Positions 3,207 to 6,806 of a stretch of 64,000 bases of DNA are shown here, one piece after another. How positions within the stretch are numbered: the first letter of the stretch is position 1; each line of letters starts with the position of its first letter. The position numbers were made by a program, and so were the translations under genes. The notes beneath the pieces were generated by a model. The model was not told the origin of the DNA. It saw only the letters and a program-made list of their open reading frames with translations, and ran no database searches. Source of the stretch: Mycobacteriales bacterium (lineage in GTDB: Bacteria > Actinomycetota > Actinomycetes > DATLTS01). The stretch lies in contig DATLTS010000041.1 in assembly GCA_035533475.1 (NCBI GenBank), positions 65,070-129,069 on the forward strand. The letters run 5' to 3'.

Positions 3207-4685
3207 ATGGCACAAAACCTGCGGCGTAGGGGTGCGGCAGCAGCCGCGCTCACGGTCGCCAGCGGCACGCTCCTGGCCACGGTCGCGGTAGCCGCCCCGG
3301 CTGGAGCGGCGACCAACGTCGCGCCCGCGTTCTACTCCGGCGCGACCCAGGGCAACGTCCTCGGCGTCACCCTCAACCTTCCGACCGCGCTGCCCGGCCT
3401 GCCGAACCCGGCGGCCCTGGGCCTGATCAGCGCCACCGGCACCGCCGTGCACAACACGCTCAGTGCCGCCGTGACCAACACGGCAAGCTCGTTCGCCGGG
3501 CTGGCCTCAGGCAGCCTGGTCCAGTCCGGCCCGCTCGGCATGCTCAACCGGTCCGCCTCGGCGACGACCAGCGGGGCGCGCGACGCGACCAGCAGCCTGG
3601 GCACGATCCCCAGCAACGTTCTGGTCAGTGGCTCGCTCGGCAGCCTGGCCGCGCATGTCCTGAGCGCCCTCCCGAGCAGCGTCTCCACCGCGAACCTGGC
3701 CAACCTCAGCGCGGGCCGGCTTCGCGACATCCTCGGCTCGTCCCTGGTCAACCAGATCACCAGCGTCTACAACTCGATCGAGTCCAACGCCCAGTCGACC
3801 GTGAGTTCCGCGGTCAGCACCATCGACTCGGTGCTGGGCCCGCTCGCGAGCCAGGACCCGACCGGCGCGGCCGCGCTGCTGGAGTCGCAGGTCAACAGCC
3901 TGCCGAGCCAGCTCGACTGCTCGAAGAACACGGCCTGCCTGCTCAACACCCTGCTCGACAACAACCTGCTCTCCTTCGACGCACTCGACGCCCACCAGGG
4001 GATCGTTCAGGTCGCCGACGGCGTTCAGTCGACGGCCCACGCCGGGTTGCTCGGGGTCAACGTGCTCGGTGGCCTGGTATCGGTCAACGGCTTCACCAGC
4101 GACGCGACCGCGTTCGCCGACGGCCGGCCCGGACACGCCACCGCCGCGGTCAACCCGGTCGTCGCCACCGCGAAGGTCGGAAAGCTGCAGATCACGCTGG
4201 GCAACGGCGCTACCGGAACCATCCTCGGGATCAACGTGGGTGGCCTCACCGGCCAGACCGTCACGCAGATCAACTCGGCGCTCACCACCGTGGTCAACAC
4301 GCTGAACAGCGTGCTCAACACGCTGGGCGTCTCGGTCTCCGCCACCAAGGGCACGACCAGCGTCAACCCGGACGGCAGTTCGGCGACTGCGACCGGTGGC
4401 GTGCTCACCATCGACGTCTCGGCGCCGTCACTGCCCACAGGTGGGGCGGCCACGACGGCCGGGGCGAACTCCTCCTCCGCCGCGCCGCTCGTGCAGATCC
4501 AGCTCGGTGGCGCCTCGGCGGCCGCTCGGGCCCGGCAGGCCGTGCTGGTCCCCAACAAGGTGATCACCCCGGCCACGACGGCGCTCCCGCACACCGGGGC
4601 GAACCTGCCGTTGACTGCGGGTATCGGCATGGTGCTGCTCGGGGCTGCTGCCCTGGTGCGTCGCCGGCTGATGAGCAACGGCTGA
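3207..4685 (+). CDS. Secreted cell-wall-anchored protein with LPHTG sorting signal
   Basis: Surface protein of unknown function, 492 residues. The ATG follows TCGGAGG at 3190-3196. Residues 1-35 form a signal peptide (basic n-region, hydrophobic core, AGAA cleavage site). The mature part is rich in Ala, Ser, Asn, Thr, Leu and Val with few charged residues, contains two pairs of Cys-containing short stretches near residues 232-245 (DCSKNTACLL), and shows repeated NTLNSVLNTL-like and TNTASS-like segments. The C-terminus is a classic sortase signal: LPHTG at 460-464, a hydrophobic segment, and an RRR tail. It is expressed from a perfect sigma-BldN promoter and ends in a strong terminator, so it forms its own transcription unit. 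In Streptomyces that sigma controls chaplins and rodlins; no chaplin domain is visible here. A coat or adhesion role is inference. Confidence 0.85.
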   Translation: MAQNLRRRGAAAAALTVASGTLLATVAVAAPAGAATNVAPAFYSGATQGNVLGVTLNLPTALPGLPNPAALGLISATGTAVHNTLSAAVTNTASSFAGLASGSLVQSGPLGMLNRSASATTSGARDATSSLGTIPSNVLVSGSLGSLAAHVLSALPSSVSTANLANLSAGRLRDILGSSLVNQITSVYNSIESNAQSTVSSAVSTIDSVLGPLASQDPTGAAALLESQVNSLPSQLDCSKNTACLLNTLLDNNLLSFDALDAHQGIVQVADGVQSTAHAGLLGVNVLGGLVSVNGFTSDATAFADGRPGHATAAVNPVVATAKVGKLQITLGNGATGTILGINVGGLTGQTVTQINSALTTVVNTLNSVLNTLGVSVSATKGTTSVNPDGSSATATGGVLTIDVSAPSLPTGGAATTAGANSSSAAPLVQIQLGGASAAARARQAVLVPNKVITPATTALPHTGANLPLTAGIGMVLLGAAALVRRRLMSNG

Positions 4686-4710
4686 ACGCTGCGCCGCTAA
4701 AGCGCGAAAC

Positions 4711-4743
4711 CGAAGCCCGGCCCTCCTCGAGGGCCGGGCTTCG
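4711..4743 (+). terminator. Strong hairpin terminator after the surface protein gene
   Basis: A 14-bp perfect stem (4711-4724 with 4730-4743) and a 5-nt loop, 25 nt past the stop codon. There is no T-tract, as is usual for GC-rich actinobacterial terminators. Confidence 0.8.
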
Positions 4744-4768
4744 GCGTGTTCGCGGGTAGATTGCCGCC

Positions 4769-5848
4769 GTGGCCCGCCGGAGCAGACCCGACACCCGGGC
4801 CGTGCTCGCCGGCGCGGCTTCCGCGGCGGTCGCCGAGGTGGAGGCCAGCCTGACGGTGCCGCTGGACTCGTCGGCGGCCGCATTCTTCGACGTCGACAAC
4901 ACGATGATGATGGGCGCCTCCATTTATCACTTCGCCCGGGGTCTCGCCGCACGGCACTTCTTCACCTGGCGGGACCTGGCGAAATTCGGCTGGCAGCAAC
5001 TGGCGTTCCGACTGGTTGGCCGGGAGCAGCTCGAGCACATGGCCGAAGCGAAGGAAGCCGCGCTGGCGTTCGTCGCGGGCCATCGGGTGGACGAGGTGGT
5101 GGAGCTAGGCGAGGAGATCTACGACGAGCTGATGGCCGATCGGATCTGGTCCGGTTCCCGGGCACTCGCCCAGATGCATCTCGACGCCGGCCAGCGGGTG
5201 TGGCTGGTCACGGCTGCGCCGATGGAGCTGGCCGGGCTGATCGCGCGCCGACTCGGGCTTACCGGAGCGCTCGGGACGGTCGCCGAGTCCCGGGGCGGCG
5301 TGTACACGGGGGCCCTGGTCGGCGAGCCGCTGCATGGGCCGGCCAAGGCCGAGGCGATCCGGGCGCTGGCCGCCCGGGAGGGTCTCGACCTCGGGCGATG
5401 TGCGGCGTACAGCGACTCGGCCAACGACCTGCCGATGCTCACGGCGGTTGGGCACCCGGTCGCCGTGAACCCGGATGGCGAGCTCAGGCGGGTGGCCCGG
5501 GAGCGCGGATGGGAGGTCCGCGACTTCAGAACCGGACGCAAGGCCGCCCGGGTCGGGCTCCCAGCCCTGGCCGGCGCCGCCGGGATCGCCGCGGGGATCG
5601 CGGTCGGCCTCTCCTTCCGCCGGCGGTTCCGCTCGCGGAGCCGCTCCAGCAGCCTGCCCAGCCGGTCCAGCCGCCGGCGAGTGTGCAATTTCCGACAGGA
5701 GGTCACGCTCACGGACGGGTCCGGGGTGTCGGAAATTGCACACTCGGTGGTGCGGGGGGTGGGGGGTCGGGTCAGAAGAAGACCGAACGGCGCTGCATTA
5801 GCAGCTTGTACAGGGTCTGCTGGATCGTCTCGCGCACCTGGTCGGTGA
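4769..5848 (+). CDS. HAD-IB family phosphatase (SerB1-like) with odd C-terminus
   Basis: Haloacid-dehalogenase phosphohydrolase, related to phosphoserine-phosphatase-like SerB1 of mycobacteria. The GTG start at 4769 is preceded by TAGATT and 6 nt, suggesting a leaderless mRNA. Motif I is FFDVDNT (Asp41, Asp43), motif II is VTAAP, and motif IV is [11 protein letters not shown] with the metal-binding acidic pair. A short hydrophobic stretch near residues 268-285 precedes an Arg/Ser-rich tail. The reading frame then runs through a 67-bp inverted repeat (5679-5745) and overlaps the convergent acyltransferase gene by 77 bp. The last 55 or so residues look unlike a HAD tail and may be acquired. It accompanies the PlsC/SDR genes, as in the Rv0501-Rv0505c neighbourhood. 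Confidence 0.85.
5679..5745. repeat. 19-bp perfect inverted repeat at the HAD/acyltransferase junction
   Basis: Arms at 5679-5697 and 5727-5745 are perfect reverse complements (left arm begins GAGTGTGCAATTT), separated by 29 nt. The arms are noticeably more AT-rich than the surroundings. The element lies inside the 3' end of the HAD reading frame and just past the convergent acyltransferase stop. It could be a bidirectional terminator, but the loop is long; a palindromic mobile element is the alternative. No second copy was seen in this window. Confidence 0.7.
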
Positions 5849-6806
5849 GGTTGAACACGAGCATCGGGTCGTCTGCCGCCGCCCGACCGAACTCGTCGGT
5901 GGGGATCGGCTCGCCGAACTCGATGATCCACTTGGACGGCAGTGGCAGCAACCCGAGCGGACCGAGCAACGGAAAGAACGGCGTGACCGGGACGTAGGGC
6001 AGCCCGAGGAGGCGGGCCAGCGTCTTCGCATTGCCGACGATCGGGTAAATCTCTTCGGCACCGACGATCGAGCAGGGAACGATCGGGACGCCGGTGCGAA
6101 GCGCGGCGGAAACGAAGCCTCCACGGCCGAACCGCTGAAGCTTGTACCGCTCCGAGAACGGCTTGCCGACGCCCTTGAAGCCTTCCGGGTAGACCGCGAC
6201 GAGCTCCCCACGACCCAACAGTCGCTCGGCATCGGCGTTGCAGGCGAGCGTGTGACCACCCTTGCGAGCCGCCGGCGCGATGATCGGCATCCGGAACACG
6301 AGGTCCGCGGCGAGCATGCGCAGGTGCCGGTGGGCGGGGTGGTGGTCGAGGATCGCCAGCTGGGTCATCACCCCGTCGAGCGGGACGGTGCCCGAGTGGT
6401 TGGCAACGACGAGTGCCCCCCCGGCATCCGGGATGTTGTCGAGTCCGCGGGTCTCGACCCGGAAATACCGCTCGTACAGCGGGCGGACGGCTGCCATCAG
6501 GACCCGGTCGTTGAGATCGGCATCGAAGCCGAAGTCGTCAACCTCGTAGTCGCCGGTGACGCGCCGCCGCAGGAACGCCAGCGCGCCGGCCACCTTCTTC
6601 TCCCACTCCGGCGCCGGCGCCACCAGGGACGGACTCGCCGCGCGAGCGTGCGCATCGCACAGCCCGTCGACCACCGCCGGCTCGGCACAGCGACGACCCG
6701 CGTCGTCCGTCGCGGCACATCGCGCGACCCCGCGCCGGCGCGGGCGGGAACCCGGAGGCCGGACCTCCCCGCGGGACTCGATCGGGATGACCCGCGCCTC
6801 AGGCAT
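5772..6806 (-). CDS. Lysophospholipid acyltransferase (PlsC family) with N-terminal Cys motif
   Basis: Membrane-associated acyltransferase that would acylate a glycerolipid precursor. I start it at ATG 6806, after GCGGAGGA, overlapping the stop of the upstream SDR gene; the reading frame is open further upstream but lies inside that gene. The 344-residue product has a Cys30/Cys40/Cys50/His53 knuckle that could bind zinc, then the acyltransferase domain with NHSGTVPLD (His137 and Asp144) and [11 protein letters not shown] as the substrate-binding block. The family resembles mycobacterial Rv0502. Coupling to the SDR suggests a joint lipid-modifying function, which is inferred. Confidence 0.85.

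Follow-up and report, generated by a model that had tools for sequence, protein, structure and literature searches.

A dispersed family of long-armed palindromes so far found only in one actinobacterial genome

Introduction

Many descriptions of dispersed palindromes exist for Proteobacteria, where a RAYT transposase often accompanies them. According to PMC3733652, most GTAG REPs have stems of 6–9 bp, and CGTC REPs have stems of 8–9 bp, loops of 4–5 nt and a terminal CGTC tag. Rickettsia palindromic elements, according to PMC10969869, are about 150 bp long, encode a conserved peptide and insert in frame within genes.

Here we describe a palindrome with much longer arms in a 64,000-nt stretch of DNA from a Mycobacteriales bacterium (assembly GCA_035533475.1, contig DATLTS010000041.1, positions 65,070 to 129,069; hereafter, the window). 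It lies at the junction of two convergent genes, one for a HAD-superfamily hydrolase and one for an acyltransferase. We think it probable, with moderate confidence, that this palindrome is a lineage-specific, non-coding, interspersed repeat, copied to sites between genes and apparently mobile.

Results

The palindrome at the HAD–acyltransferase junction

The features of the junction are collected in Table 1. The initial annotation of the window had placed a 19-nt inverted repeat at 5679–5745; this repeat is real, and its arms extend to 20 nt with 100% complementarity. The description of an Arg/Ser-rich tail interrupted by AT-richer arms is also correct by reading of the sequence. When up to three mismatches are allowed, the 17-nt core of the arm has two matches in the window, both with 0 mismatches; 100 shuffles gave a mean of 0.07 matches, and none reached two. 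The energy of the hairpin as RNA is −40.3 kcal/mol (z −6.80) on one strand and −40.2 kcal/mol (z −8.72) on the other; as DNA it is −26.7 kcal/mol (z −8.55); for each molecule, 0 of 200 shuffles were equally stable. An Rfam search returned nothing at the element, its single match (4671–4762) lying far below the cut-off. Upstream, a GC-rich hairpin with 16-nt arms and a 3-nt loop (4710–4744) follows an open reading frame that ends at 4685 and looks like an ordinary terminator before the HAD gene.

Table 1. Features at the HAD–acyltransferase junction (window coordinates).
Feature	Position	Strand	Remarks
HAD-superfamily hydrolase frame (PF12710)	4769..5848	+	runs through the element; codons 5771–5848 not coding-like
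Stretch common to the window copy and the L009 copy	5654..5797	+	~24 bp left and ~50 bp right of the element
Left half-site, CGAGTGTGCAATTTCCGACA	5678..5697	+	20 bp
Interior (loop)	5698..5726	.	29 nt, varies among copies; CACGCTC core
Right half-site	5727..5746	-	exact reverse complement of the left half-site
Acyltransferase (PF01553)	5772..6674	-	convergent with HAD; stop triplet at 5772

As the initial annotation stated, the element lies within the HAD frame, which leads into an antisense overlap with the acyltransferase gene; we confirm this overlap, which is 77 nt long including the acyltransferase stop codon. With a codon model, the HAD frame past the element scores −1.05 per codon (GC3 31%), the antisense acyltransferase tail scores +0.37 per codon, and the element itself is neutral (0.01). 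Because the frame beyond the element scores as non-coding, the acyltransferase tail as positive and the element as near zero, the HAD extension is most simply explained as read-through after the old stop was lost, not as an adapted domain.

The HAD orthologs do end earlier, as had been anticipated. The tail that follows the RDFRTGRKA motif has a median length of 29 aa in the relatives (74 readable loci of 80) vs 100 aa here; 73 of the 74 have a shorter tail, the only one of at least 70 aa being that of L118 (410 aa). By HAD identity (73–82%), the nearest five relatives are MAGs of Frankiales/Frankiaceae. In L040, L041, L056 and L044, the distances from the HAD stop to the acyltransferase stop are 0, 19, 12 and 39 bp, and the element is absent; L040 and L041, near relatives that have the same two convergent genes, provide ‘empty sites’ from genomes in which HAD is 80–82% identical, that is, not from close strains. 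Elsewhere the gap between the two genes is variable (12 to 1446 bp, median 109.5) in the 14 of 80 HAD loci where our script found the acyltransferase; on recheck of five loci, the acyltransferase was found in four but not in L112.

A family of paired half-sites

The check proposed with the initial annotation, a search of the genome for the arm, revealed that the arm is not unique. In this genome (3.27 Mb, a draft of 68 contigs), the 17-nt core has 31 forward and 31 reverse matches with up to three mismatches; the reversed-pattern control has 1 and 0. The 62 arms fall into 31 inward-facing pairs; no arm is unpaired, and each has its partner within 63 bp. A 32nd, decayed copy (L037) was found by similarity, so the family has ~32 copies; L037 is excluded from the tests of arm pairing, target duplication and identity, for which n = 31. 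The core element is 51–63 bp long.

The half-site is 20 bp long (consensus CGAGTGTGCAATTTCCGACR) and sharply bounded: at every position from 1 to 19, the consensus base is present in 57 to 64 of the 64 half-sites, the last position is a purine in 62 of 64, and the flanks drop to background. Both 19-nt arms are exactly consensus in 23 of 31 copies, and arm identity averages 98.2% over the 19 positions. The pairwise identity of the interiors averages 0.43 (shuffled interiors, 0.33). Interior lengths are discrete: 28 or 29 nt in 24 of the 32 copies, 17 or 18 nt in seven and 25 nt in one. The arms are too invariant for a test of co-variation or compensatory change; at the variable last base, where base-pair upkeep was tested in 31 copies, none was found. 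In 29 of the 31, both arms have a purine there, yet the two match as a base pair in only 8 of 31 (13.6 expected).

Several interiors have sequences in common. A CCACGCTTGG-like core is found with up to two mismatches, in either orientation, in 11 of 32 copies and with three to five in the other 21, a weak similarity that was scored without a control. The interiors of four copies (L020, L023, L035 and L036) contain CGACACGCC, which is also found in the loop of the GATCATGG families of G400 and G139; this is a possible hint that these may have a common origin.

Placement relative to genes

We located the copies relative to genes called with a simple codon model of our own, without annotation. 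Seventeen of the 32 are in tandem gaps, eight between convergent genes, six between divergent genes, and one, the window copy, at a convergent junction but inside the HAD frame. Thus, 31 of 32 are intergenic by this gene caller, although the L026 copy overlaps a gene by 35 nt under another start choice.

The initial annotation had likened the window repeat to Rickettsia palindromic elements; the part of this claim that stands is that the element is palindromic and dispersed. An insert of that kind, tolerated in genes and extending HAD by a translated tail, would explain why the HAD frame is open through the element and why its tail is so long; also, the arm lacks stop codons in all six frames (as do 10% of shuffled arms), and each copy has four to six of its six frames open. 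However, the intergenic position of nearly all copies and the poor coding score past the element make such an in-frame coding insert very improbable; the score of the element itself is neutral on this point.

A two-way terminator had been offered as the alternative. Terminators of this type, or RNA hairpins that stabilize 3′ ends, spread as a convenient sequence, would be expected at the convergent window junction and would benefit from the very stable RNA hairpin; in 14 of the 17 tandem gaps, the stop of the upstream gene is closer to the copy than is the start of the downstream gene. However, by reading of the sequence there is no T-run after the window hairpin on either strand, and a terminator scan that detects only loops of 3–8 nt found none; also, what is conserved in the family is the sequence of the arms, not their pairing alone.

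A further comparison is with the relative G400, in which another palindrome, unlike that of the window in sequence, occupies the HAD/acyltransferase junction (L047:3791–3857; GTTGATCATGGACTTTGCAACA within 25-nt arms, 17-nt loop). It belongs to a separate set of dispersed palindromes (GTTGATCATGG...; L047 and L171–L203) with arms of about half GC. The 18-nt arm has 49 forward and 51 reverse matches in G400 with up to two mismatches and 0 in 14 other genomes, including the genome of the window. We fetched 34 distinct elements of about 50, leaving out those cut by contig ends and counting L047 and L187 (G400:C56), which are the same place, once. Of these, 23 are convergent, 10 tandem and 0 divergent, with one at a contig edge. 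By the gene caller, TGA(TCA) provides one or more neighbors with their stop codon in 14 of 34. The arms co-vary: two-sided changes occur in 8 of 22 pairs, and 96.1% of cells are paired vs 92.4% after shuffling (0 of 500 shuffles as high); the kinship of copies can beat shuffles without structure, but slid controls also fall far below.

The G400 family is terminator-like and, unlike the window family, is found at convergent and tandem 3′ ends, has co-varying arms and has a TGATCA able to supply stop codons. The two families differ in divergent placement (6/32 in the window family vs 0/33 in the G400 family, p 0.011) and in convergent placement (9/32, the HAD copy counted in, vs 23/33, p 0.0012). 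The G400 family therefore looks like a set of two-way terminators and the window family does not. That a terminator-like palindrome occupies the same junction in G400 is consistent with such a role for the window copy; with six copies between divergent genes, the role is not supported for the window family as a whole, and we consider it quite unlikely.

Duplicated units and neighbors

Some copies share more than their half-sites. Six copies (L014, L015a, L015b, L016, L017 and L021; subfamily B) have ~18 bp to the left and ~46 bp to the right of the half-sites in common. In the four of the six that were compared, identity is 0.79–1.00 within a unit of ~133 bp (−21 to +112) and 0.25–0.38 outside it, and the right flank is found in the genome only alongside the palindrome (40 of 44 candidates scored). 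Subfamily B is, then, a discrete unit at several unrelated places, with edges that lie outside the inverted repeats. By eye, a GGTTAGGC-like octamer is found at both ends of the unit in L014, L016, L017 and L021, with no exact duplication within copies; the left octamer varies among copies, and the right one is nearly constant. These octamers could mark an insertion rule.

Subfamily A consists of the window copy, L009 and L010. The L009 copy (G000:C18:84123–84258; L009:1549–1680) shares flanks on both sides with the window copy (Table 1): identity is 0.79 on the left and 0.93–1.00 over the element plus the 25 bp that follow, then gapped but clear to ~5797, with background outside. The L009 copy bears ~26 bp of the end of the acyltransferase gene, including its last codons, although its own neighbors encode TfoX_N and WS_DGAT proteins. 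Because the acyltransferases of relatives also end in RRSVFF-type codons, the L009 copy most likely derives from the window locus. Subfamily A looks more like the result of imprecise segment duplication than of exact transposition.

The sharp-edged B unit at unrelated places and the L009 copy with its acyltransferase tail are the evidence, from sequence comparison, that copies have been duplicated to new sites. In the pairs L022/L033 and L012/L027, the interior is in common and the flanks hardly at all. For 17 of 31 copies there is no sister interior with at least 0.80 identity, and their arms are nonetheless intact; this pattern is not predicted by simple recent copy-and-paste and would call for either cut-and-paste or site-by-site selection.

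Selection at each site might be exerted by the host. The copies could be inverted half-sites, read on duplex DNA by a dimeric protein (e.g., a chromosome organizer or a widespread regulator) and held at whole-turn spacing, their spread being old and incidental. Near-invariant arms around interiors of low identity fit this explanation, as does spacing in steps of ~11 nt; the last base, so often a purine on both sides and so seldom paired, makes reading of duplex DNA likelier than reading of a hairpin. However, ordinary operators are far less specific than a 20-bp half-site that shows so little degeneracy. The neighbors also speak against it. About 62 flanking genes were called, and the products of 50, including the HAD and acyltransferase pair of the window, were scanned. 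Pfam matches were obtained for 48; the families are diverse and point to no common pathway, so we rejected a pathway regulon. The orientation of the elements is mixed, and the duplicated units carry their flanks. On balance, we regard host sites under selection as rather unlikely.

Spread among relatives

The element is not a fixture of the orthologous locus: its arm is found in 0 of 80 HAD loci. At up to one mismatch, it is absent from 59 other genomes, which are related at the class level only. In the genomes of 14 nearer relatives there are no paired arms; four have a single match at two mismatches, and in one of these 14 genomes the control pattern matches once. No family was revealed by a looser two-arm pattern in 392 other genomes of the class, five of which have one or two unrelated chance matches; the two-arm pattern has no match in collections of viral contigs and genome contigs, in which the record of the window itself may be absent. 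Against 20 plasmid records and 6 phage records, similarity searching yielded nothing beyond short, weak matches (best E 1e-2 and 0.2, respectively). A de novo search for palindromes in two relatives, with 20 contigs taken from each (135 kb in one and 301 kb in the other), found no family like that of the window; the output was restricted to arms of 16 nt or more, or of 12 nt or more where GC did not exceed 0.72 and the loop had at least 6 nt. To judge from the genomes covered, the family may be confined to this actinobacterium, the only genome in which it has so far been found. No published description of the palindrome family of the window or of G400 was found in the literature searched, which was covered mostly at the level of abstracts.

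Other palindromes were encountered in these genomes. TTGATCATG...CATGATCAA-ended palindromes are found in 23 of 393 genomes of the class, 16 of them in one family (f19), with 52 copies in G133 and 0 in the genome of the window; their inner arms differ between genomes (G133, G101, G143, G058 and others). Like the window family, they have long arms and are dispersed, and some have a CGACACGCC-like loop core; the G400 copy at the HAD/acyltransferase junction is one of them. In G395, three AAACGATCATGAG-type palindromes with 37-nt interiors and GGCAGC/GCTGCC-like stems are found on one contig (L161:254–314, 9901–9963 and 11004–11068). In G402, a third relative, a palindrome with 15-nt arms (CTGATCAAGGTGCAG) and a 25-nt loop lies just behind the HAD gene (L091:3225–3279). 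Its arm, TGATCAAGGTGCAG, has nine matches in G402 and two to eight in each of 14 other genomes at up to one mismatch, so the palindrome is perhaps not a member of a family.

Discussion

Our preferred explanation, a non-coding repeat copied into intergenic DNA, can be put in terms of the following mechanism. The two near-invariant, inverted 20-bp half-sites are most likely the recognition sites of an enzyme or other protein that acts in trans, and mobility would depend on this protein. The interior would be a spacer, the length of which matters more than its sequence; the ~11-nt steps between the lengths correspond to about one helical turn. We favor recognition of duplex DNA over recognition of an RNA hairpin because of these steps and because the innermost base of the arm is an unpaired purine. 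Copying may take along adjoining DNA, that is, the ~133-bp unit in subfamily B and the tail of the acyltransferase gene in subfamily A. The window copy would have landed between the convergent HAD and acyltransferase genes; as no HAD stop codon occurs before the element, HAD reads on for 56 codons, and this read-through is probably a by-product of the element.

A bolder version of this explanation is that the repeat is a self-spreading element, a cassette of two near-invariant 20-bp binding sites for one protein that are helically phased. It would be moved without a Y1 transposase or target duplication, would be able to carry gene ends, and would be kept intact while its interior drifts. We offer this only tentatively and think it improbable; if true, mobility would be tied to a host function, for example, chromosome organization.

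Long near-invariant half-sites, drifting interiors, phased spacing and the lack of a recognizable mobilizer together raise the question of what moves or maintains this actinobacterial family. The window and G400 families also illustrate that palindromes unlike in sequence can hold equivalent places, and they provide a contrast between mobile and functional palindromes.

Comparison with known repeat classes

The window family resembles REPs and REPINs, that is, short palindromes that are dispersed and intergenic, have tens of copies, are able to form hairpins and are often species-specific; the window family is likewise dispersed, intergenic and present in many copies. It differs from GTAG REPs in its 20-nt arms and its interior of 17–29 nt. 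None of the 64 arms has a conserved GTAG (or GTRG) head, and a search of 12 draft genomes for the RAYT/Y1 transposase (PF01797) found 0 in the genome of the window and 0 in 11 relatives, whereas the positive control matched in 5 of 14 known genomes; as drafts, the 12 may lack the gene through gaps in assembly. We therefore rejected identity with the REP/RAYT system. CGTC REPs, as dispersed palindromes without a dedicated transposase, are similar in that respect; however, with 20-bp arms, the same long interior and a TGTC/CGTC at the inner end of the arm, the window family matches them neither in stem and loop nor in a terminal CGTC/TGTC tag.

With MITEs, as they are generally characterized (see also PMC10969869), the family shares its shortness, lack of coding capacity and inverted repeats. 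Subfamily B occurs as a discrete unit at several places, but its edges lie outside the inverted repeats. Unlike MITEs, the family has a poorly conserved interior and no clear target duplication, and no parent insertion sequence was found that shares its ends. For target duplications (31 copies, eight offsets, lengths 2–8), matches are near the expectation from mispaired flanks except at offset 4, where there are 4 vs 1.3 expected at 3 nt, 1 vs 0.2 at 4 nt and one 7-nt match, a CG-rich run in L033. No autonomous element with the same ends was found in the 68-contig draft, where such an element may have been lost in assembly gaps.

With Rickettsia palindromic elements, the family has in common that it is palindromic, that it is open in a reading frame and that one copy lies inside an open reading frame. 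Differing from REPs, MITEs and Rickettsia elements in the features that define each of them, the window family is best filed as a new variant among the dispersed palindromic repeats of bacteria.
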